Positions 1,041-13,582 of a stretch of DNA of 16,784 bases are shown here, piece by piece. Below the pieces are notes generated by a model that did not search any database, was not told where the DNA came from, and saw only the letters and a program-made list of their open reading frames with translations. The position numbers were made by a program, and so were the translations under genes. The stretch covers positions 1 through 16,784 of the forward strand of contig JAKASN010000003.1 in assembly GCA_021819025.1 (NCBI GenBank), read 5' to 3'. Within the stretch, counting starts at the first letter, position 1. The number at the start of each line of letters is the position of its first letter. The stretch comes from Actinomycetes bacterium. GTDB lineage: Bacteria > Actinomycetota > Acidimicrobiia > Acidimicrobiales > Acidimicrobiaceae.

Positions 1041-2018
1041 CTAGATAGTTCCCGCGAGTTCGTGGCTAAAATAGCTGAGAATTAAATCTGCTCCAGCGCG
1101 CTTAATCGCAGTCAGTTGCTCAATCGCAATCGCCCGACCATCCACGTAACCGGCGGCATCGGCTGCCTTTACCATGGCGTATTCTCCGGAAACTTGGTAT
1201 GCCGCGAGCGGGATGGTAAGGCGCGGCTTTACTGCAGCGATAATATCCAAATAGCTCGAAGCTGGCTTTACCATGACCATATCGGCACCTTCGGCCACGT
1301 CAAGGTCGACTTCAAGCAACGCTTCGCGAGCGTTTCGAAAGTCCTGCTGATAGCCCTTCCTGTCCCCACCACCCACAATTTGCACACCAACCGCGTCGCG
1401 AAAGGGGCCATAGAATGCCGAAGCATATTTGGCCGAGTAGGCAAGAATCCCCACGTCAATAAAGCCTTGGCCGTCAAGGGCATCACGTATTGCTCCGACC
1501 TGGCCATCCATCATTCCCGAGGGTGCCACGAAATCGACTCCAGCATTTGCTTGGGCAATTGCCATCTCACAATAGAGCTCGACGGTGGCATCGTTGTCGA
1601 CGCGGCCCCTCGAGTTGAGCACCCCACAGTGTCCATGGTCGGTGAACTCGTCGAGGCAGAGGTCGGCCATTACCACCGCCGATTCGCCCAACGAAGCTTT
1701 AAGGGCGGCAATCGCTTGCTGTGTGATGCCATCGGGGGCGTAACCCTGGCTGCCAAAGGGGTCCTTCTCGTTCGGCACCCCAAAAATCATGAATCCACGG
1801 ATGCCAAGGGCGCTGAGACGCTCTGCCTCTTTGCAGAACGAATCGATAGAGTGCTGAAAGATTCCCGGCAGCGACACGATGGGGATTGGGCCGTCGGCAT
1901 CCTGTTTGACAAACAACGGCGCGATGAGATCCGACGTGGCCAGGTGAGTCTCTGCGACGAGATCTCTTATGGCAGCATTGGCTCGCAGCCTCCTGGGTCT
2001 TCGCTGCTGAGGGGACAT
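1041..2018 (-). CDS. hemB: Porphobilinogen synthase (delta-aminolevulinic acid dehydratase)
   Basis: HemB condenses two molecules of 5-aminolevulinate into porphobilinogen in the cytosol, an early step of heme, siroheme and cobalamin synthesis. The 325-residue length is normal. The two active-site lysines are visible: K197 in AYSAKYAS and K251 in VMVKPASS, the second forming the Schiff base. The metal loop reads DLCLDEFTDHGHCG (119-132). It keeps C121 and C131 of the three-cysteine zinc site but has D123 at the middle position, as in magnesium-type enzymes; I recall this mixed form from other actinobacterial HemB proteins. GGGDRKGYQ and YQVSGEY are also family signatures. There is no Shine-Dalgarno sequence, and TAAATT ends 6 bases before the ATG, so the transcript is probably leaderless and hemB has its own promoter, separate from the operon upstream. 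Confidence 0.97.
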   Translation of the reverse strand: MSPQQRRPRRLRANAAIRDLVAETHLATSDLIAPLFVKQDADGPIPIVSLPGIFQHSIDSFCKEAERLSALGIRGFMIFGVPNEKDPFGSQGYAPDGITQQAIAALKASLGESAVVMADLCLDEFTDHGHCGVLNSRGRVDNDATVELYCEMAIAQANAGVDFVAPSGMMDGQVGAIRDALDGQGFIDVGILAYSAKYASAFYGPFRDAVGVQIVGGGDRKGYQQDFRNAREALLEVDLDVAEGADMVMVKPASSYLDIIAAVKPRLTIPLAAYQVSGEYAMVKAADAAGYVDGRAIAIEQLTAIKRAGADLILSYFSHELAGTI

Positions 2019-2024
2019 AGGGCT

Positions 2025-2052
2025 AATTTAGTCGACTAGAGCGCATATGCAA
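2025..2052 (-). promoter_or_regulatory. Probable hemB promoter (leaderless type) with a MarR-like half-site
   Basis: On the minus strand, TAAATT (2030-2025) fits the actinobacterial TANNNT -10 consensus and ends 6 bases before the hemB ATG, placing the transcription start at or next to the A of ATG. At 2052-2045, in the -35 area (16-base spacing), lies TTGCATAT, whose first seven bases equal the arm of the MarR operator at 830-858. The core GCATATGC is self-complementary. Confidence 0.45.
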
Positions 2053-2212
2053 CATCGTCGTCGCCCCGTAGCGATTGACTGTTATCGCATTGATATCGCA
2101 CTTCTCCTAATACGGCTCACCTAATACCCGGCGTCAGTTCTGCCATCACGGCACGAACAAAACTCCAGCTCTTCTTAGACGCCCTGAGCAAGCGGCTGGC
2201 CTGAACGCGAGA

Positions 2213-2240
2213 AGCCTCAAGGCAACGAAGCCTTTGAGGA
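2213..2240 (-). terminator. Hairpin at the 3' end of cobA-hemD
   Basis: CCTCAAGGC (2215-2223) and GCCTTTGAGG (2230-2239) form a nine-pair stem with one bulged base and a six-base loop. The stem covers the last codons and the TGA of the fusion gene. No U-run follows on the minus strand, so it may be a weak or Rho-assisted terminator, or an RNA-stabilising structure. Confidence 0.35.
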
Positions 2241-3713
2241 TGTCATGCTCCGCAGCACGACCTCGAGAAGTCCCTCGATATTATGTACCTCGGCGGTAGC
2301 GGTAACTCCAATATCCATCTCTCTGGCGGTTTCAGTAGTTACCGGTCCAATCGAGAACACTCTCGACGGGAGACGATCTCGCCCATAGATCTCGACGAAA
2401 TTGCGCACCGTGGACGACGACGTGAAACATATCGCGTCCGCCGAGGTGACCTCCTGCAGTTCCCTCTCCGACGGTTGATATGGGATGGTCTGGTACGCTT
2501 GGACAACGTGAGGAGCGTAGCCTTTCAGGCGCAAGCCCTCGACGAGGACATCCCGTGCGACTCTTGCCTGCGGAACGAGTACCCCTCCGCTTCCGGAGGG
2601 AAACACCTCTAACAGTCCTTCGGCCACGAAGCGATCTCCGACGAGATCTACTCCGACGTGACGCTGCCTTAGCGCCTCCATGGTAGCTGAACCGACCACC
2701 GCGATCTTGATCCCGGCAAGCTTACGATAATCGTCGCAGCGGTCCAAAAATGCCTCGACTCCATTCGCAGACGTGAACACCAGGTAGCGAAAGTCCGATA
2801 TTTTGGAGATTGCATCATCCATAGCCTGAAATCCATCACTGGGCGCGACGATGGAAATCGCCGGAGCAGATATCACCCGGGCTCCCAAGTCAGAGAGGGC
2901 GCGCGCCAGCACTCCGGCCTGGTTAAGCGCCCTTGTGACGATGATTCTCTTGCCGAAGAGAGGACGGCTTTCAAAAAAATTAAAGTTGAAGCGAGCCACC
3001 TCGCCAATAATGATCGTCGCCGGTGAGCGAACCTTCATCACGGCAAGGTTTTCGAGCTCTCCTCGGTAACTCTCCTGTTCGGGACGGGTGCCCCACTGTA
3101 CCGCCGCTACTGGTGTTTTCGGGCTAAGTCCCGCGGCGATGAGCCTCGCGGCAATCTCTCCTCTATGGCCAACACCCATGAGAACCACGATGGTACCACC
3201 GAGGCGCGCTAAAGCGGCGTAATCAGTGTCGTCGGCGGCATCCCCCTGGCGATGCCCGGTGATCACGGTGAGTGAGGTGGAGACACCCCTATGGGTGACT
3301 GGAATACCTCCATAGGCCGGGACTGCGATCGCCGAGGGAACTCCGGGCACCACCTCGAATTTGATACCAGCACTTTGCAAGGCCTCGAGCTCTTCGCCAC
3401 CGCGTCCAAACAGCATCGGGTCGCCCCCCTTGAGGCGCACAACGGTACCATAGCGACGCGCGGCGTCGACGAGAATCGCATTGATCTCTTCCTGGGCCAT
3501 GGGACGATTGGGACGTTTGCCCACGTCAACCAGTTCGGCCGCCGGCGAGGCGAAGGAAAGCAGTGAAGCATCCGCCAAGTAATCATAAACCACGATGTCC
3601 GCGTCGCCAAGGAGTTCGTGACCCCGCAGCGTCAAGAGCCTGGGATCTCCCGGACCCGCGCCGACAAGATACACCGTCCCAAATTCCACTTTCGATGGCT
3701 TCACTTCGGCCAA
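2217..3713 (-). CDS. cobA-hemD: Bifunctional uroporphyrinogen-III C-methyltransferase / uroporphyrinogen-III synthase
   Basis: This 498-residue two-domain protein is a fusion common in actinobacteria. Residues about 11-245 are the SAM-dependent methyltransferase (SUMT/CobA) that turns uroporphyrinogen III into precorrin-2: VYLVGAGPGDPRLLTLRG (14-31), VVYDYL, RLKGGDPMLFGRGGEE (93-108) and VVPGVPSAIAVPAYGGIPVTHRG (121-143). Residues about 254-490 are HemD, which cyclises hydroxymethylbilane into uroporphyrinogen III: GKRIIVTRA, LVFTSANGVEAF (311-322), ICFTSSSTVRNF (428-439) and SIGPVTTETARE (454-465). One polypeptide thus makes the ring and commits part of it to the siroheme/B12 branch. The most upstream start is TTG at 3713; its ribosome site (GGGAG, complement of 3731-3735) is 17 bases away. 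A GTG four codons in (3704) is an equally possible start. It lies 29 bases behind hemC. Confidence 0.95.
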   Translation of the reverse strand: MAEVKPSKVEFGTVYLVGAGPGDPRLLTLRGHELLGDADIVVYDYLADASLLSFASPAAELVDVGKRPNRPMAQEEINAILVDAARRYGTVVRLKGGDPMLFGRGGEELEALQSAGIKFEVVPGVPSAIAVPAYGGIPVTHRGVSTSLTVITGHRQGDAADDTDYAALARLGGTIVVLMGVGHRGEIAARLIAAGLSPKTPVAAVQWGTRPEQESYRGELENLAVMKVRSPATIIIGEVARFNFNFFESRPLFGKRIIVTRALNQAGVLARALSDLGARVISAPAISIVAPSDGFQAMDDAISKISDFRYLVFTSANGVEAFLDRCDDYRKLAGIKIAVVGSATMEALRQRHVGVDLVGDRFVAEGLLEVFPSGSGGVLVPQARVARDVLVEGLRLKGYAPHVVQAYQTIPYQPSERELQEVTSADAICFTSSSTVRNFVEIYGRDRLPSRVFSIGPVTTETAREMDIGVTATAEVHNIEGLLEVVLRSMTSSKASLP

Positions 3714-3742
3714 CCTAGTCGCTCAAAGATCTCCCGGTGAAT

Positions 3743-4639
3743 TCAACTTTGCGACGCGGCCGACGCCAAAAGGCGCTCTCCGCCTGCGGAAAGCAGGTAG
3801 GCGCCCATCTCCGCGCCGAGGCGTAGCGCATCCGAGCCGCTCATCGACGCCGAGACCACCTCTTTGCCATCCAATGAGGCAATCATGCCGAAGAGTCCGT
3901 TTCCACTCTCCAGAGAAGTGGAATAAGCTCCGACCGGAAGGGTGCAGCCAGATCCCAGCGTCTTGAGCATGGATCTCTCCGCACTGACATGTGCACGGGT
4001 AAGAGCGTCATCAAGATGGCTCGCGGCCCCGATGGCACGGGAATCATCAGCTCTGGTTTCGATCGCGATCGCCCCTTGGGCGACTTGTGGGCAGAACACT
4101 TCAGGATCGAGAACTTCTGCGGCCATCGTCGCCAAGCCGAGTCGAAGCAAGGCAGCGTATGCAATCACCACGGCATCCGCCTCGCCAACGCGGGCCAGGC
4201 GCGTCCTGATATTGCCACGCAGCGCGACGACATTTAAATCGGGCCGATGCCAAAGTAAAATGGCTTTCCTGCGTGCAGACCCTGTCGCCACGGTAGCGCC
4301 ATGTGCCAAATCCTTCAAAGGAGAACCGACCATCGCATCCCGAACGTCTCCCCGTGGCAAGAAAGCCGCAATTATCAAGTCTTGGTGGGTAGTGGCCGGT
4401 AAATCTTTTGCTGAATGCACCGCAAGGTCAGCTTCCTTGCGCAAGAGTGCCATCTGGACCTCTTTTACAAAGACACCTTGGCCACCAATTTCGCTGAGAG
4501 GACTCGAGACATCGATGTCTCCATGGGTCTCCACAGGAAGTAGTTCATAGGGCTCGCCCAGCGCGCGACCGACCTCATTGGCCTGCCATTGCGCCAGTTC
4601 ACTCTTGCGCGTGGCTATCCGCAGCGCAGATTTGGTCAC
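3743..4639 (-). CDS. hemC: Porphobilinogen deaminase (hydroxymethylbilane synthase)
   Basis: HemC polymerises four porphobilinogens into hydroxymethylbilane, which the HemD domain encoded just downstream uses. The 298-residue length is typical. Diagnostic segments are LRIATRKSELAQWQA at the N terminus, AVHSAKDLPA (74-82) with catalytic D79, ATGSARRKAILLW, VVALRGNIRTRL (137-148), QVAQGAIAIETR, and TLGSGCTLPVGAYS (228-240), where C232 would hold the dipyrromethane cofactor. The start is GTG, and its last two bases plus the next A form the TGA of hemA (GTGA overlap, 4636-4639), so translation is coupled to hemA. The usual HSLKD motif reads HSAKD here, a mild deviation. I have no doubt about the assignment. 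Confidence 0.97.
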   Translation of the reverse strand: MTKSALRIATRKSELAQWQANEVGRALGEPYELLPVETHGDIDVSSPLSEIGGQGVFVKEVQMALLRKEADLAVHSAKDLPATTHQDLIIAAFLPRGDVRDAMVGSPLKDLAHGATVATGSARRKAILLWHRPDLNVVALRGNIRTRLARVGEADAVVIAYAALLRLGLATMAAEVLDPEVFCPQVAQGAIAIETRADDSRAIGAASHLDDALTRAHVSAERSMLKTLGSGCTLPVGAYSTSLESGNGLFGMIASLDGKEVVSASMSGSDALRLGAEMGAYLLSAGGERLLASAASQS

Positions 4640-5889
4640 AAGTCGAATAGGAAGCTAAGAGCTTCAGCGAGCTTCTCGGCACGCTCCACATTGGTCTCTT
4701 TGAGGCGCGTCACCGGTTGATGGAGTACCTTGGCCACGATTCCACCTGCGAGGGCTTCAACAGCTCTCAGCTGGCCCGGATCGAGACCTTCAAACTTGGA
4801 GCGGAATCGCGCCAGTTCGGCGAGCTTGATATTTTCCGCCATTTGATAAAAAGCTGAGATGGTGGGAGTGAGACTTGCGGCATGCGCAGCACGAGAGCTG
4901 AACTCCGCAACCTCGGCCTCGATAATCTCTTCGGCCACCGCGACTTGGGAGCGTCGCAAGTCCATCTGCTCATCAAGAAATGAGTAGACGGCATCCAGGT
5001 CGAGAAGAGAAACGCTACCCAGCTCAGAGAGTTGCGGGTCAATATTTCGCGGCATTCCGAGATCCACTAGAACTAACTCTCGACCGACAATTTCTCGAGC
5101 AACGAGGCCCACCACGGCTTCTTTCTCCACGAGATAACTCGTCGAGCCGGTGGCGAAGAGCGCTGCGTCGTAGTCGCCGAGATTCGCCAGGGCAAATTCA
5201 AATGGAACACTAATGGCACCAAGCTCTCCCGCGACGCGTTCGCCTCGCATCTCAGTTCGATTGGCAAGGTGCACTTCTACGCCTCTGTCCACCAGTGCTT
5301 GCGTTACTTTTGCGCCGATCTCACCCGCGCCAACCACAAGTGCACGCGATAGCGCCGGGCGTACCTTAACCAGCAGTTCGGTTGCCGCGTACGCCGAAGA
5401 GGTGACCCCGCGTGAAATGGTAGTTTCAGAGCGCACCCGCTTACCCACTTCGAGAGCGCGCTGAAAAAGCTTCTCCAGCGCCGGCCCAGTCGCACCCAAC
5501 TCGTGAGCTTTGACAAAGGCCCGCTTAACTTGACCGATGATCTCGGACTCTCCGAGGATCTGCGACTCCAGCCCTCCAGCGAGGCGAAATAAGTGATGGG
5601 TGGCGCCAGCATCGTAGTAGACGTGCGCGACCTCAGCTATCTTGGATCGTGGCGACCCTAACGCCGAAGCCATCGTGGCGATGATCTCGTCGATTCCAGC
5701 ATGGAAAGAGGTGACTGCGGCAAAGATCTCGGTGCGGGCACACGTCGAGAGGATTACCGACTCCTCGACAAGCTCCGAAGCCTGCAACGATTTCAGGCAT
5801 GGCATGACTTGCGCATCCGCCAAGGCAAAATCGGAAAAATCCCGAGGGCCCAATTCGCGTTGCGAAATTCCTACCGCTACAACAGGCAT
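4636..5889 (-). CDS. hemA: Glutamyl-tRNA reductase
   Basis: HemA reduces glutamyl-tRNA(Glu) with NADPH to glutamate-1-semialdehyde, the first committed and often rate-limiting step of the C5 tetrapyrrole pathway. The 417-residue protein has the standard three parts. The catalytic domain (1-160) carries nucleophile C50 in LSTCARTEIF and the signature FRLAGGLESQILGESEIIGQVKRAF. The NADPH-binding domain has ALVVGAGEIGAKV near 190 and HLANRT. A long helical dimerisation domain ends the protein. The normally invariant Asn after the catalytic Cys (STCNR) is Ala here. The start ATG lies inside the end of the precorrin-2 dehydrogenase-like gene (13-base overlap) with AGGTGA about 9 bases upstream, so the two are translationally coupled. 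A gsa/hemL gene for the next step is not in the window. Confidence 0.97.
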   Translation of the reverse strand: MPVVAVGISQRELGPRDFSDFALADAQVMPCLKSLQASELVEESVILSTCARTEIFAAVTSFHAGIDEIIATMASALGSPRSKIAEVAHVYYDAGATHHLFRLAGGLESQILGESEIIGQVKRAFVKAHELGATGPALEKLFQRALEVGKRVRSETTISRGVTSSAYAATELLVKVRPALSRALVVGAGEIGAKVTQALVDRGVEVHLANRTEMRGERVAGELGAISVPFEFALANLGDYDAALFATGSTSYLVEKEAVVGLVAREIVGRELVLVDLGMPRNIDPQLSELGSVSLLDLDAVYSFLDEQMDLRRSQVAVAEEIIEAEVAEFSSRAAHAASLTPTISAFYQMAENIKLAELARFRSKFEGLDPGQLRAVEALAGGIVAKVLHQPVTRLKETNVERAEKLAEALSFLFDL

Positions 5890-6590
5890 TGTCTTATTTC
5901 ACCTATAGCCAATTCTTCATCGCCATTCTCAAGAAGCGCGAGCGCATCTGAACCAAGTACACTATCCCACGCGCCCGGCCTGGCGGCTATACCGTTCCGC
6001 CTTGCTTCGTCTCGCACTTCGGCACAAAGGCCCACAAATCTGTCGAGGGCCGGACTCACTTGTTCAGCGAGCTTGCCACAAATCCACCTAGTCACCGCAG
6101 GGGCTGTGCCCAATGAGGCCACCCCAACTTCGAGGTGTGCAAACCTCGCGTTTGCGACACTTCGAAGATTACCACTGCTAGCACTGCTGGCGTCGTTCAC
6201 TAATAGCCCTTTGCTGATCTGTCGACGAGCGATTTCGCCATTTAGCAAAACGTCGTCACTCGCGGCAAAGACCACTGAAAACCCATGCAGATCCGCCTCC
6301 TGAAACTTCCGCACCGAGATCTCGAGCTTCTTGCCTTCCAGATCAAAGACGATATCTTGCACTTCGTTTGAAAATTCTATCCAGTTATGCTGAGAAATGG
6401 CCTCCGAAGCTGCAAGGTCGCACCCGGCGACCAGAGAGGCGAGGCTGGCAATGAAGTCTGGGGAGAACTGCGGAGACACGACTTTGAGATGCGCCGGCAA
6501 GGTAACCATCGAGACGAGTTTCCTTGTCGCCACGGTGCCTGCGCCTACTATGAGCACTGGCAAAGTTCCGAAGTCCAGTTCCGCCAACAT
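5877..6590 (-). CDS. Precorrin-2 dehydrogenase / sirohydrochlorin ferrochelatase-like protein (Met8/CysG-N type)
   Basis: This is a 237-residue NAD-binding protein at the head of the tetrapyrrole operon. The N terminus reads FGTLPVLIVGAGTVATRKL, the GxGxxA Rossmann fold of the CysG-N/Met8/SirC family (usually VVGGGxVAxRK). The middle has VVFAASDDVLLNGEIARR and GLLVNDASSASSGNLRSV (family: VNVxDDPxxCxF), and the end has GVASLGTAPAVTRWICGKL (family: STxGxSPxLARxL). It would oxidise precorrin-2, made by the CobA domain encoded in the same operon, to sirohydrochlorin. Sequence between the motifs is divergent, with an unusually long stretch around residues 60-90. I chose ATG 6590 because GAGG sits 10 bases upstream and the fold begins right after it; the frame stays open to 6884, and an ATG at 6662 is a less likely start. 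It resembles the NAD-binding N-terminal protein often found before hemA in actinobacteria. Confidence 0.8.
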   Translation of the reverse strand: MLAELDFGTLPVLIVGAGTVATRKLVSMVTLPAHLKVVSPQFSPDFIASLASLVAGCDLAASEAISQHNWIEFSNEVQDIVFDLEGKKLEISVRKFQEADLHGFSVVFAASDDVLLNGEIARRQISKGLLVNDASSASSGNLRSVANARFAHLEVGVASLGTAPAVTRWICGKLAEQVSPALDRFVGLCAEVRDEARRNGIAARPGAWDSVLGSDALALLENGDEELAIGEIRQCLL

Positions 6591-6655
6591 CGTGGATCCA
6601 CCTCTAGCTTGAATACCCCTTGCCAGCGAATCTAGACTGCGGCTGCGAAGTGTCC

Positions 6656-6686
6656 TTGACATCGGGGGTCCAAGAAGGTCTAGTTT
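6656..6686 (+). promoter_or_regulatory. Promoter for the seven-helix protein gene
   Basis: A perfect TTGACA (6656-6661) is followed by TCTAGT at 17-base spacing (6679-6684) and TAGTTT at 19-base spacing (6681-6686). Either would start transcription within a few bases of the ATG at 6694, so this transcript is probably leaderless. The opposite-facing tetrapyrrole operon begins about 100 bases away and shares this control region. Confidence 0.5.
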
Positions 6687-6693
6687 GTTGGAC

Positions 6694-7395
6694 ATGGTAG
6701 AGGTTGTCACCGCAGCAATCGCGACACTGGTGGGCTTAGCATTTGCGCTATCCACGTACGAACGCTGGCTTGCAAAAAGACGTAACCACGAGCTGGCCTG
6801 GGCAACATCGCTCTCGATGTTCGCGATTGCCGCTTTCGCGCTTGCCCTCGGTGCCCAAATGGGCTGGAACCCATTGCTTTTCAAAGTCTTTTACCTTTTC
6901 GGCGCGATTTTGAACGTGCCTTTCCTCGCACTAGGAACTGTATACCTGCATTGGGGTAAGTCAATAGGGAACAAAGTCGCTGCTGCGATAATCCTTTTAT
7001 CCTTTTTTGCCGCGGGAGTGCTCATCGCGGCTCCAATTACCCACGCCCTTCCCATCCACCAACTCGCCCAAGGCTCCAAAGTCTTCGGAGCCTTGCCGCG
7101 CGTCTTTGCCGGGGTTGGATCCGGAGCCGGGGCACTAGTGGTCTTCGGAGGAGCCATCTACTCTTTTGTCCGAACCCAAACCGCGAGGTTTCGCGTCTCG
7201 AACGCTCTTATCGCCATTGGCACGGCGATCACTGGCGCGAGTGGCATCTTGAACTCGGTGTTCAACGCTATGACGGCATTCTCTGTCACGCTCGTAATTG
7301 GAATTACCGTAATCTACTTCGGCTTTGTGGTTGCCACCGGGGGAGCACCAAAAAGCCAACCCCAGGTTTCTGCGACACCCCTTGAGGCGCCTTGA
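6694..7395 (+). CDS. Uncharacterised seven-helix membrane protein
   Basis: The 233-residue protein has about seven hydrophobic segments, near residues 3-20, 35-54, 63-86, 94-113, 136-159, 168-190 and 193-215, and a short polar tail rich in Pro, Gln and Ser. Helix 3 carries LFKVFYLFGAILNVPFLALGTVYL, which matches my memory of an unnamed actinobacterial 7-TM family with WxxAxxxFALGA and FKxFYLxGAxLxVPxLAxG patterns. No catalytic motif or heme-ligand histidine pair is evident. It diverges from the tetrapyrrole operon and shares its control region, which hints at, but does not prove, a role in heme or cytochrome biology. ATG 6694 was chosen because the -10 element lies just before it; TTG codons at 6685 and 6688 behind AAGAAGG are alternative starts. 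The function is unknown. Confidence 0.75.
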   Translation: MVEVVTAAIATLVGLAFALSTYERWLAKRRNHELAWATSLSMFAIAAFALALGAQMGWNPLLFKVFYLFGAILNVPFLALGTVYLHWGKSIGNKVAAAIILLSFFAAGVLIAAPITHALPIHQLAQGSKVFGALPRVFAGVGSGAGALVVFGGAIYSFVRTQTARFRVSNALIAIGTAITGASGILNSVFNAMTAFSVTLVIGITVIYFGFVVATGGAPKSQPQVSATPLEAP

Positions 7396-8458: not shown

Positions 8459-8728
8459 ATGCAGGAGATAATCCAACGTCTTGCCAAGGTCATCCTCGGA
8501 ATGGGGCGCGAAGTAGCTCCCGAAGCTAGTGGTTTGCTCACCAACCACTACTGCCACCATTACAAACTTCTGCTAAGGAGTCCCAAGGCTATCTTCAATG
8601 CCCGAAGAGCCGACATTGATATCGAAGGATACCCATTGTCCTTGAGCGCTGGAAAGCTCAAAGAGAAGTTCAACGACGTGGCGATAGATCTCGTTTTGGC
8701 TCTACAAGGACGCCCATGGAGCGTCTAA
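8459..8728 (+). CDS. Small protein of unknown function (89 residues)
   Basis: I do not recognise this protein. It is soluble-looking, with a helical N terminus (MQEIIQRLAKVILGMGREV), a central CHHY tract (NHYCHHYKLLL, about 29-39) and an amphipathic C-terminal half ending GRPWSV. There is no signal peptide or membrane segment. Its TAA interlocks with the TAG of the convergent mshA gene (8725-8728), tight packing that argues for a real gene. AAGGA near 8437 is rather far (about 17 bases) from the ATG, so the ribosome site is poor. The Cys-His-His cluster could bind a metal, but nothing proves it. Confidence 0.5.
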   Translation: MQEIIQRLAKVILGMGREVAPEASGLLTNHYCHHYKLLLRSPKAIFNARRADIDIEGYPLSLSAGKLKEKFNDVAIDLVLALQGRPWSV

Positions 8729-9969
8729 ATACACTCGGTCAATTCCCGAGAAGCGAGGGCTTCGACAATGTCGAGAACCTCGACTCCCGCCTTGCGCCAC
8801 GAGTAGCCCCGCGCGAAATCCACCGCAGCGCCCGACAACTTGCGCGGGGTCGGCTTGCCGTCAAAGACCATCCCGATCGCCTCAGCAAATGCCCAGGGAC
8901 TTCTCTCGTCAACGAGGTGGCCGGTCACTCCCGGTATTACCAGCGAGTTGAGACCGCCGACCTTGGACGCCACCACGGCGGTTCCACATGCCATCGCTTC
9001 GAGGGCTACCAATCCGAAGGACTCGCTTCGAGACGGAACCACGGCAACGTCTGCGCCGCGGTAGTAACTGGCCAAGCGAAGGTGAGGTTCGGGATCACGC
9101 AAGATCACCCGCTCAGCAAAGCCATTTTCGGACGCCAGCGCTAGGCACTTGGCAAGCTCCACTTCGCCGAGATGTCCCGACGGTCCGCCGACAATGACAA
9201 AATAGGCGTCAGGATGATCCCACAAGAGCGCCTCGAAGGCCTGCATGGCGAGCAAGAGGCCCTTGAGCGGCTGGATTCTCCCGACGTATAGAACAATCTT
9301 GCCGTCTTTTGGTAATTCCACCGCCCGGCGTGCCATTGCCTTGTCACCCGGCGCGAACAATGCGTGCTCGACACCAAGTCCGACCACCCGAAGCCTCTCG
9401 GGGGAGACGTTAAGATGGCGCTCGAAGTCGTGAGCCTCATGCTCGCACGACGCGAGCACAACGTCTGAACACGCCGCCACTTGATCTTCGGTCTCGATCC
9501 GGAATTTCTCTGCAACTCTGTCATCGGGCCGCAAACGGCTCTCAGCCTTGACTCTTTCGAGGGTATGAAAAGTTGTCAGCATCGGGATGCCATAGTGGTG
9601 CTTCAACTTGTGCGCCGCAATTCCCGAGAGCCAGTAGTTGCCATGGACGACATCAGGCATCTCTGCTGAATTGAGAGATATCCGCTGTATGACGTTGTCA
9701 GTGAACTCGTCGACGAGGTCGCTTAGGGCCTCTTTGGGCAGTGGCCCCAAGTCTCCCGCTGGCACGTTATGGACTACTAATCCAGGCTCCACCTGCTGGC
9801 TGGCAGGTTGGTGGGGGGACACCGCCCTTGTATAGACACTCACGTGGGATCCAAGGCGGGCTATTGCCGAACTCAGCTGACGTACATATACGTTCATGCC
9901 GCCACCGTCACCGACTCCGGGTTGCTCCAAAGGTGAACTGTGCAGCGAAATCACCGCAAAATTAGGCAT
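8725..9969 (-). CDS. mshA: GT4-family glycosyltransferase, D-inositol-3-phosphate glycosyltransferase-like
   Basis: MshA transfers N-acetylglucosamine from UDP-GlcNAc to 1L-myo-inositol-1-phosphate, the first step of mycothiol synthesis. From ATG 9969 the protein has 414 residues with two Rossmann-like domains. N-terminal: VISLHSSPLEQPGVGDGGGMNVYVRQL, the MshA and sucrose-phosphate-type acceptor and phosphate loop, then HGNYWLSG and TTFHTLERVKAE. C-terminal: VLYVGRIQPLKG, VIVGGPSG, and the EX7E donor site in SRSESFGLVALEAMACGTAVVASKVGG. A TTG at 10002 would add 11 residues (NKSLGKQIKK), but the fold begins only after the ATG. The match to mycobacterial MshA is close at every motif, although related GT4 enzymes share them. 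mshB, mshC and mshD are not adjacent, which is usual. It runs tail to tail with the 89-residue gene. Confidence 0.85.
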   Translation of the reverse strand: MPNFAVISLHSSPLEQPGVGDGGGMNVYVRQLSSAIARLGSHVSVYTRAVSPHQPASQQVEPGLVVHNVPAGDLGPLPKEALSDLVDEFTDNVIQRISLNSAEMPDVVHGNYWLSGIAAHKLKHHYGIPMLTTFHTLERVKAESRLRPDDRVAEKFRIETEDQVAACSDVVLASCEHEAHDFERHLNVSPERLRVVGLGVEHALFAPGDKAMARRAVELPKDGKIVLYVGRIQPLKGLLLAMQAFEALLWDHPDAYFVIVGGPSGHLGEVELAKCLALASENGFAERVILRDPEPHLRLASYYRGADVAVVPSRSESFGLVALEAMACGTAVVASKVGGLNSLVIPGVTGHLVDERSPWAFAEAIGMVFDGKPTPRKLSGAAVDFARGYSWRKAGVEVLDIVEALASRELTECI

Positions 9970-10121
9970 CTTCTTGATCTGTTTACCCAAACTCTTGTTC
10001 AATGTAAGTTAACCAAAGTCTTCCAACACTGAAATACGTCCGGTTGTTTCGTACCTCGGCAGGAAACTTTGCGCATCCACTCCGCAAGCTCTCGTCTAGC
10101 GAGCTCGGCAAGACCATAATG

Positions 10122-10661
10122 CTACTTATCGTCCTGCAACACTTTGGCGATTAGGTCATCGACCATTGACGCGTCTCCACGATAACGCACGACCAGCTCG
10201 GCCCGAATGGCGTCGATGGCAAGAAAAAGAACTCTCCGCCAGTCAGAAAGCATCTGCTCCACCTTGAGCATCGCCTCGGCGTCGCCGCCATCTTCTTGTT
10301 CGGTAAAGCGAGCCATCAAAGCGGATATCTCTTCCTCGACTTCATCTATCTGGCGGTCGCTTATAGAAGTGTCTACAAAGCGCCCAAATCCACTCTGAGG
10401 CGTGGTACCCGAGCCGATGGCCGAGCTAAGCCGGGAGATTGCTTCGGAATCTGGCTCACCCTGGACACTTTGGAGCTGATTAGGGTCAAAGCCAAGTGTG
10501 TCAAGGCGTCCCTGGGTGATGCGACGCGCATACGATACCATCTCCTCAACCCTCTCGGCCTCCTCCTTGCGCTGGCGAATCACTTCGATATCCAGGTGGG
10601 CAAGGTCAGCATAAAAAGTTTCGTTCGTTACGCGAGCGACTTCTGACTCAAGTCTTTGCAT
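10122..10661 (-). CDS. RsiG-like c-di-GMP-binding anti-sigma factor
   Basis: This 179-residue, largely helical coiled-coil protein carries the c-di-GMP signature of RsiG, E(X)3S(X)2R(X)3Q(X)3D. The first copy is exact (E39, S43, R46, Q50, D54 in EEMVSYARRITQGRLD). A second copy at E135, S139, R142, D150 has Phe146 in place of Gln. In Streptomyces, RsiG holds sporulation sigma factor WhiG when loaded with c-di-GMP through two such helices; Rubrobacter RsiG has one copy and dimerises. A charged, disordered-looking linker (about 57-105) separates the helices here. The C-terminal helix ends IRAELVVRYRGDASMVDDLI, a pattern I associate with this family. TAAGCT ends 6 bases before the ATG and there is no Shine-Dalgarno sequence, so the transcript is probably leaderless. 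No sigma factor gene is nearby. Confidence 0.8.
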   Translation of the reverse strand: MQRLESEVARVTNETFYADLAHLDIEVIRQRKEEAERVEEMVSYARRITQGRLDTLGFDPNQLQSVQGEPDSEAISRLSSAIGSGTTPQSGFGRFVDTSISDRQIDEVEEEISALMARFTEQEDGGDAEAMLKVEQMLSDWRRVLFLAIDAIRAELVVRYRGDASMVDDLIAKVLQDDK

Positions 10662-10740: not shown

Positions 10741-11070
10741 TCAAGCGCCCAAGCCCAGCCAACGCAGCTTGGGCCAGTACGCCAGAATTGCTCGGCCCTC
10801 ATAGAGATTCGGGGCGAGAGGCCCAAAGCGTCGGGAGTCTGTCGAGGCAGCGGAATTGTCTCCGAGCACCTCGAAATATCCCTTCGCGTTGACGCTTGAG
10901 ACGCGTTTGATGATCAGTCTCTCGCCCGGGAACGGACCTCGGGCCACCACAATCGCACCGGGAATACACATCTTCCGCCGCAAGAAGCCCACGCAGAGGA
11001 TCCTTTCCCCGGGCTCAAGACTAGGAACCATGCTCACGCCGGATACCCGGATACGAAAAACAAGACGCAC
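10741..11070 (-). CDS. sodX: Nickel-type superoxide dismutase maturation protease (S26 family)
   Basis: This is a compact 109-residue S26 serine protease with the nucleophile in GVSMVPSL (S13), the general base in RLIIKRVS (K55) and the S26 box GDNSAASTDSRRFGPL (70-85). It lacks the N-terminal membrane anchor of LepB, as expected for the cytosolic SodX that trims the NiSOD pro-peptide so that His1 can bind nickel. The gene lies head to head with sodN, 166 bases away, the classic pairing. The start is GTG at 11070. TAGCAT (complement of 11078-11083) ends 7 bases upstream and there is no Shine-Dalgarno sequence, which suggests a leaderless transcript. Confidence 0.92.
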   Translation of the reverse strand: MRLVFRIRVSGVSMVPSLEPGERILCVGFLRRKMCIPGAIVVARGPFPGERLIIKRVSSVNAKGYFEVLGDNSAASTDSRRFGPLAPNLYEGRAILAYWPKLRWLGLGA

Positions 11071-11236: not shown

Positions 11237-11644
11237 ATGATGTCATTGAAGGGGTTCACTAACTTTCTATCGGCACGTACCGCTAGTGCACACTGCGACC
11301 TGCCCTGTGGCGTATACGACCCGGTGCAGGCGCGGATCGAAGCCGACGCCGTAAAGGCGTGCATGGAAAAGTTCAACGCCTCCAGCGATGAAGTGTTCAA
11401 GGAGCGCGCAGTTCGCATCAAGGAAGACTGTGCCGATAAGGTCAAGCGCCACCTTTGGATCCTCTGGACGGACTACTTTAAGCCGGCGCATCTTCAAGCG
11501 CACCCCACGCTACACGAGGTATTTTGGAGTGCCACCAAGACTGCCGGTGATGCAAAAAAGACCAACGACGTCGCCGTGGCAGATAAGCTTCTCGCTGAAA
11601 TCGCCGAGATCGACAGGATCTTCTGGGAGACCAAAAAAGGCTAG
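11237..11644 (+). CDS. sodN: Nickel-containing superoxide dismutase
   Basis: SodN dismutates superoxide to oxygen and hydrogen peroxide with a nickel ion bound in a hook at the N terminus of the mature protein. The hook HCDLPCGVYDP is present as H19-C20-D-L-P-C24-G. The first 18 residues (MMSLKGFTNFLSARTASA) are the pro-peptide cut by SodX before H19, leaving a mature chain of 117 residues, the size of the Streptomyces enzyme. The rest is the four-helix bundle with ILWTDYFKPAHL and LHEVFWSATKTAG, both family hallmarks. It is divergent from sodX and followed by a strong hairpin. In Streptomyces this gene responds to nickel through Nur; I could not identify a Nur box. Confidence 0.97.
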   Translation: MMSLKGFTNFLSARTASAHCDLPCGVYDPVQARIEADAVKACMEKFNASSDEVFKERAVRIKEDCADKVKRHLWILWTDYFKPAHLQAHPTLHEVFWSATKTAGDAKKTNDVAVADKLLAEIAEIDRIFWETKKG

Positions 11645-13505: not shown

Positions 13506-13582
13506 GCCCTCCTGGCGCAATTGGTTAGCGCAACGGACTTTTAATCCGTGGGTTCTGGGTTCGAGTCCCAGGGGGGGCACCA
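13506..13582 (+). tRNA. tRNA-Lys (anticodon UUU), CCA encoded
   Basis: A full cloverleaf is visible. The acceptor arm is GCCCTCC with GGGGGGC (one U-G pair), the D arm GCGC/GCGC encloses the AATTGGTTA loop, the anticodon stem ACGGA/TCCGT has loop CTTTTAA (anticodon TTT), and the T arm CTGGG/CCCAG has loop TTCGAGT. The discriminator is A, and CCA follows in the DNA (13580-13582). The 77-base length with CCA is normal. The 3' half is a classic target for tyrosine integrases, and a degraded integrase starts 78 bases downstream in the same direction. Confidence 0.95.

Follow-up and report, generated by a model that had tools for sequence, protein, structure and literature searches.

The closest described systems to the locus analysed here are two forms of the anti-sigma factor RsiG, which ties the level of cyclic diguanylate (c-di-GMP) to the sigma factor WhiG: the twin-motif, monomeric RsiG of Streptomyces venezuelae (6pfj, 6pfv) and the single-motif, homodimeric RsiG of Rubrobacter and Thermoleophilia (7lq2-7lq4, which we take to be Rubrobacter RsiG structures). 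Here, an rsiG-like gene was followed up on a stretch of 16,784 nucleotides (the window), which is the entire contig JAKASN010000003.1 of assembly GCA_021819025.1 (C336 in our numbering), from an actinobacterium resembling Acidithrix, a member of the order Acidimicrobiales. The assembled genome amounts to 2.74 Mb in 543 contigs and is 73.9% complete. As judged from profile, structure and alignment comparisons, the product is a genuine RsiG of an Acidithrix-like actinobacterium carrying a conserved aromatic variant of the second half-site, and the same genome holds a WhiG-class sigma factor.

According to the main text of PMC8325347, one residue of the c-di-GMP motif stacks on guanine in the solved RsiGs. 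In our phmmer alignment, motif 2 of S. venezuelae RsiG has Gln at this place. The main text of PMC8325347 also counts a twin-motif RsiG in three of four Acidimicrobiales species, describes the published twin-motif alignment as varying only in motif 1, where His replaces Gln and is considered capable of stacking, and reports possible pilus and c-di-GMP-enzyme targets in Rubrobacter. The word 'phenylalanine' is absent from that main text, a statement that does not extend to the supplement. In the open-access literature, no paper was found on an RsiG-WhiG switch in Acidithrix-like bacteria beyond PMC8325347, which counts RsiG in Acidimicrobiales.

The protein studied here has the twin-motif layout of the Acidimicrobiales RsiGs and shares with S. 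venezuelae RsiG its two motifs, two long helices, linker and the presence of WhiG in the genome; it differs at the motif-2 stacking position, which holds Gln there and Phe here. With the RsiG of Rubrobacter it has in common the c-di-GMP signature in the first helix and, as candidates, pilus and c-di-GMP-enzyme targets, whereas both helices lie here in a single chain.

An RsiG with an altered second motif

The features of the gene, all on the minus strand, are as follows.

10122..10661 (-), rsiG-like gene, 179 aa, ATG start (open reading frame (ORF), PF22802, phmmer against PDB, Foldseek)
10494..10589 (-), first motif helix, residues 25-56 (AlphaFold2 model, mean predicted local distance difference test score 85.1)
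10500..10547 (-), motif 1, E39 S43 R46 Q50 D54, exact (ORF translation)
10176..10283 (-), second motif helix, residues 127-162 (AlphaFold2 model)
10212..10259 (-), motif 2, E135 S139 R142 F146 D150 (ORF translation)
10224..10226 (-), F146 codon TTT; in solved RsiGs the residue at this place stacks on guanine (stacking role as given in the main text of PMC8325347)

Motif 1 fits the signature E(X)3S(X)2R(X)3[Q/H](X)3D with Q50 present, and motif 2 has E, S, R and D at identical spacing with F146 replacing Q; the original prediction, made from the letters of the window, had placed both motifs correctly in the 179-aa ORF. Its assignment to RsiG also stood, as the Pfam profile RsiG PF22802 matched the protein in two stretches (53.2 bits against a cut-off of 27, E 2.4e-14) and the best matches among solved structures were to S. 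venezuelae RsiG. A phmmer search of all PDB chains returned five matches, with S. venezuelae RsiG (6pfj_T, E 3.3e-5) at the top and weak matches to the RsiG entries 7lq3, 7lq2 and 7lq4 (E 0.041-0.1) and to one designed protein (E 0.048). Foldseek on the AlphaFold2 model placed S. venezuelae RsiG in the top three places (probability 1.00, 26-28% identity); the VIA-align rows for the same model were mostly generic helical bundles. The NCBIfam profiles gave no real match, only a chance one to H-NS (E 0.084), and a plasmid search gave none. An unrelated coiled coil was considered and rejected on the PF22802 profile and the PDB matches. The eight named loci related to the protein come from Actinomycetes metagenome-assembled genomes (seven) and from Acidithrix ferrooxidans PY-F3 (one).

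The linker between the motif helices (residues 57-131) had been singled out as long and acidic. It is acidic, with a net charge of -12 and more than half of it predicted helical in the AlphaFold2 model, and it is ordinary for the family, in which the linker has a median of 85 aa and a net charge of -9 (121 rows; 8 of the 121, our own included, are as acidic or more).

Variation at the stacking position of motif 2

When the protein was aligned with its 10 closest homologues, all five residues of motif 2, F146 included, were invariant across the 11 rows; in motif 1, E, S, R and Q were invariant and D54 was kept in 10 of the 11 (E in P0011). A wider alignment of 168 rows combined 121 proteins (our own, the 10 homologues and 110 further proteins from a list of 120 out of 236 matches) with 47 locus ORFs; two fragments were omitted, a few proteins are present twice, and the sample, having been started from Acidimicrobiales-type rows, is not representative of all RsiGs. 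There, residue 146 is H in 140 rows, F in 27 and L in 1, and at residue 50 a single row has H and the other 167 have Q. The remaining motif-2 residues E135, S139 and R142 are kept in all 168 rows, and D150 in 158. Variation in twin-motif RsiGs thus lies in motif 1 (Q/H) in the main text of the published account, supplement excluded, whereas in our rows it lies in motif 2 (H/F) and motif 1 hardly changes.

On a tree of 163 rows built with column 146 removed, F at this position requires seven changes, at least two of them forced by well-supported branches; the tree is quick and unrooted, contains no single-motif RsiG and has some long branches and weakly supported nodes. F is present in all 19 rows of the Acidithrix-like clade, among which are several near-copies. 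Since F146 is fixed in its clade, lies inside a mostly-H family and also occurs elsewhere on the tree, we read it as a substitution within the twin-motif RsiGs. F146 therefore looks like a conserved lineage variant, neither decayed nor an intermediate on the way from single-motif to twin-motif RsiGs. A decayed half-site was rejected on the conservation of F146 in the close rows and in the 168-row set.

Position 146 is mostly His in the family and Phe is an aromatic replacement, a planar residue conserved in its clade in both alignments, so that guanine stacking is probably retained by a different side chain in the Acidithrix-like RsiGs, with the polar residues E, S, R and D unchanged. If F146 does stack like Gln or His, the stacking position of the second half-site would be free to change (Q, H, F) and the polar contacts would not, and ligand tuning of the sigma switch would become directly testable by point variants.

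One genome of the set (G024, 96% complete, contamination 3%) has two different twin-motif RsiG genes (G024:C110 at L064 and G024:C138 at L065), in which the motif-2 Asp is replaced by K and E.

Presence of WhiG and its co-occurrence with RsiG

No sigma factor was found on the window, either among the 10 ORFs profiled or as a match on C336 in a genome-wide FliA_WhiG search, in agreement with the original prediction as far as the contig is concerned. The genome as a whole does hold one: a WhiG-class sigma factor is encoded at G000:C88:3256-3927, with 267.5 bits to TIGR02479 (FliA_WhiG) against a cut-off of 189.6. Its best solved match is S. venezuelae WhiG (6pfj_A, 291.3 bits), the best FliA scoring 170.8 bits, and by these scores the candidate partner is closer to WhiG than to FliA. 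Three WhiG residues are described as touching c-di-GMP, K57, G61 and R62 (main text of PMC8325347). Our WhiG retains K57 and R62 and has Ser at position 61; in the 26 of 30 loci that were readable, our own included, the triad is KGR in 13, KSR in 6, RSR in 6 and KTR in 1, so that K-G/S-R accounts for 19 of the 26. In our genome whiG adjoins a gene that is presumably rpsB, a name that rests on a motif (L003), and rpsB is within reach in only 12 of the 30 WhiG loci.

Amongst 60 genomes, our own included, RsiG was found in 47, in 46 of them above the PF22802 cut-off. The TIGR02479 scores are at least 259.6 bits in 44 genomes and then fall across a gap to 205.7; the WhiG class is our own division at this gap, and the curated cut-off would count 47 genomes. 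RsiG and WhiG class were both present in 43 genomes, RsiG only in 4, WhiG only in 1 and neither in 12 (Fisher P 1.6e-8), and in the 40 genomes at least 90% complete, not filtered for contamination, the corresponding numbers were 31, 1, 1 and 7 (P 3e-6); both P values ignore relatedness. The RsiG-only genomes are G006 (65% complete), G013 (95%), G023 (71%) and G032 (76%), and the WhiG-only genome is G009 (91%).

G009 combines its WhiG-class sigma factor with five exact TAAA-N14-16-GCCGATAA sites and has no RsiG match; it is a possible case of natural anti-sigma loss, or of an assembly gap.

Candidate promoters and their genes

Our genome encodes 14 GGDEF domains and is therefore rich in c-di-GMP signalling. 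Exact matches to TAAA-N14-16-GCCGATAA numbered 29 in 12 genomes of the genus, against 10 for the reversed pattern, one of the 29 lying in a tandem repeat of GCCGATAA. In 36 genomes of the family, 9 of them also among the 12, exact TAAA-N15-16-GCCGATAA matches numbered 46 against 9 in the reversed-pattern control. With one mismatch and N15, our own genome showed no excess (10 sites against 9 in the control), and in the 25 promoter loci inspected outside the genus, 10 sites lay inside a called ORF.

Some forward sites stand before a gene whose product, about 253 aa long, has a hydrophobic N-terminus and matches GGDEF at 36.5 bits. In G008, G001, G007 and the A. ferrooxidans-like G002, an exact site ends 7-8 nt before its start codon, so that a leaderless transcript would be expected. 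This protein has 12 matches across 11 of the 12 genus genomes (L196-L207), with a degenerate GGDEF signature in all 12 copies, and no match in our own genome. The site has one mismatch in G009 and two in G003, G010, G004, G005 and both copies of G011; in G006 it has three, a number that shuffled sequences attain too (P 0.11).

Other forward sites precede a variety of genes. An exact site lies 7 nt before the gene of a 463-aa protein in G002, called pilin-like from a reading of its N-terminus, in which Pfam finds no pilin. In G009, an exact site stands 137 nt before a gene for a PAS-GGDEF protein. Our genome has five matches to this protein, of which three are preceded at 116-144 nt by sites with 2-3 mismatches and the other two lack a site, and one of the two matches in G006 has a site with 2 mismatches. 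Unrelated genes, a rhodanese-like one in G009 among them, also have exact sites before them. In the eight pilB-pilT-pilC regions searched amongst pilus genes (8 of the 12 genus genomes; our own is cut at 5.1 kb), no promoter with up to 1 mismatch was found, and the intergenic stretches upstream of ORFs contained none with up to 2 mismatches either.

The five PAS-GGDEF paralogues of our genome (G000:C487, C179, C127, C104 and C534) are 46-49% identical to the G009 protein. At E 1e-60 such paralogues occur in our genome and in G006 and not in the other genus genomes, and the C534 match has an internal stop; from these matches they are a lineage expansion of cyclase-like genes.

The WhiG-type promoters before GGDEF-type genes suggest an output back into c-di-GMP signalling, and control by the Acidithrix-like RsiG of something other than sporulation is plausible, with weak support from the promoter matches. 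An RsiG-WhiG pair and a candidate regulon containing c-di-GMP proteins are now placed in Acidithrix-like actinobacteria.

Sites pointing away from their neighbouring genes

In six genus genomes, our own included, an exact site lies in the gap that separates a MaoC-like gene from a divergent gene whose product is Thr-rich or membrane-anchored. The site in our genome is at G000:C282:2478-2505 (+) (L187), with orthologous sites in G003, G004, G005, G010, G011, G019, G029 and G032; mismatches number 1-2 in three more genus genomes, 0-1 in four g3 genomes and 1 in G013. Amongst 48 MaoC loci, 43 flanks were scored, the other 5 not being found by the pattern (one of these, G013, was read by hand), and 13 had a site with up to 2 mismatches, all in g1 and g3, compared with 0.9% in shuffled sequence. 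Because the spacer differs between genera and both boxes persist, the site looks constrained. The divergent gene is followed in G005 by GGDEF-EAL and PilT-like genes (Pfam), with the same order in G004, and our own contig ends within the GGDEF gene; the site points away from this operon, into the end of the MaoC gene.

The arrangement recurs in several genera, with TAAAG-N15/16-GCCGATAA about 40-150 bp upstream of divergent genes, many of them secreted-looking, pointing away from them and with A/T tracts flanking TAAAG.

Loci of the backward TAAAG-N15/16-GCCGATAA element: L237, L238, L241, L243, L244, L245, L246, L247, L248, L191, L192, L193

These backward sites fit WhiG promoters for RNAs and operators for an activator alike. 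The TAAA-N15/16-GCCGATAA matches that face away from genes for secreted proteins may be bound by an unknown activator of those genes and not be WhiG promoters, a reading that is less likely than not. In its favour, in many loci the sole nearby gene start is on the opposite strand, about 40-150 bp off, and in some the eye can make out a sigma-70-like promoter in between. The matches nevertheless agree with the published flagellar consensus and have TAAAG and A/T tracts at their -35 side, and other matches stand at the position expected of leaderless promoters.

Proposed mechanism and alternatives

The best explanation for the observations as a whole, which we hold with good confidence from the sequence comparisons and by analogy with the solved complexes, is that c-di-GMP-loaded RsiG with Phe in motif 2 sequesters the WhiG of this genome. 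The two long RsiG helices would pair as an antiparallel coiled coil, as in those complexes, and each motif would bind one half of a c-di-GMP dimer, the motif-2 Phe stacking on guanine in place of His or Gln and E, S, R and D making their contacts as before. The loaded protein would hold WhiG, encoded elsewhere in the genome, until c-di-GMP falls and WhiG is released, upon which WhiG would probably transcribe c-di-GMP-related and surface genes.

In S. venezuelae, RmdB has a GGDEF domain that is described as lacking enzymatic activity and that binds WhiG and keeps RsiG from binding (PMC13232838). The WhiG-type promoter before the degenerate GGDEF protein invites a comparison with RmdB, offered as a hypothesis only. 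Combined with the other observations, it leads to a reading that we regard as speculative and, taken jointly, improbable, in which RsiG and WhiG of Acidithrix-like bacteria would form a c-di-GMP feedback switch. WhiG would drive the leaderless transcript of a membrane protein whose GGDEF domain is catalytically dead, and this protein would pull WhiG off RsiG as the RmdB domain does; WhiG would also fire the recurrent promoters that face away from genes for surface proteins and for GGDEF-EAL/PilT, which would either produce antisense or small RNAs or obstruct the promoter opposite, and the aromatic motif 2 would set the c-di-GMP threshold.

A weakened motif 2, a sub-case of the sequestration of WhiG by loaded RsiG and not exclusive of it, is unlikely though worth weighing. 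F146 would lower the affinity for c-di-GMP, and either the sensor would be set higher than Streptomyces RsiG or WhiG would complete the second half-site. The change from Q or H to F does lose a polar group, F is confined to motif 2 among the 168 rows, which makes the half-sites unlike, and WhiG sigma4 contributes ligand contacts in Rubrobacter (main text of PMC8325347). Against this, F is invariant in the close rows and in the Acidithrix-like clade and recurs elsewhere on the tree, and no WhiG column separates F from H genomes in the 26 WhiG rows (out of 30) that were readable, which include 4 of the 6 F rows; in these 26 rows the contact triad likewise varies without regard to F or H of RsiG.

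Control of a sigma factor other than WhiG, which the original prediction had entertained, is very improbable in view of the WhiG-class sigma factor in the same genome and the co-occurrence in 60 relatives. It could draw on the position of whiG off the rsiG contig and on G013, the one well-covered genome having RsiG without a WhiG-class match, where a one-mismatch site is kept at the MaoC locus; that site neither supports nor refutes use of WhiG. Yet 7 of the 12 genomes with neither gene hold a FliA-range match of 160-205 bits (G022, G034, G036, G037, G038, G045 and G051) and still no RsiG, and it is the WhiG class with which RsiG co-occurs. A relic of the passage from single-motif to twin-motif RsiGs, likewise proposed earlier from the one exact and one altered motif, was rejected as hardly credible, since all 168 rows align across both motifs and, on an unrooted tree without a single-motif outgroup, the F clades are placed among H-bearing rows.

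Gene neighbourhood

The genes next to rsiG in the window are the following.

8725..10002 (-), MshA-like GT4 glycosyltransferase (TIGR03449, 360 bits, below the cut-off of 462.5)
10741..11070 (-), Ni-SOD maturation protease-like gene (SodX), a recurrent family neighbour (TIGR02754, 69.6 bits, cut-off 63.25)
11237-11644 (+), presumed Ni-superoxide dismutase-like gene (sodN), motif HCDLPCGVYDP, divergent from the sodX-like gene

The name sodN, for a Ni-superoxide dismutase (Ni-SOD), is our assumption from a motif. The order sodN, sodX-like protease, rsiG and mshA-like glycosyltransferase was seen in most of 15 loci read, and L053 and L059 have a different gene upstream of rsiG. By patterns of our own, and with many RsiG loci only 3 kb long, the glycosyltransferase signature was found in 54 of 58 RsiG loci (41 of 45 distinct RsiG cores) and the Ni-SOD signature in 33 of 58 (22 of 45).

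Elsewhere in the window, positions 1041-6884 (-) hold a tetrapyrrole cluster with hemB, a fused cobA-hemD, hemC, hemA and a gene for a CysG N-terminal-like domain protein, in which the roughly 100 residues ahead of the domain match nothing in Pfam. A tRNA-Lys (TTT) lies at 13506-13582 (+).
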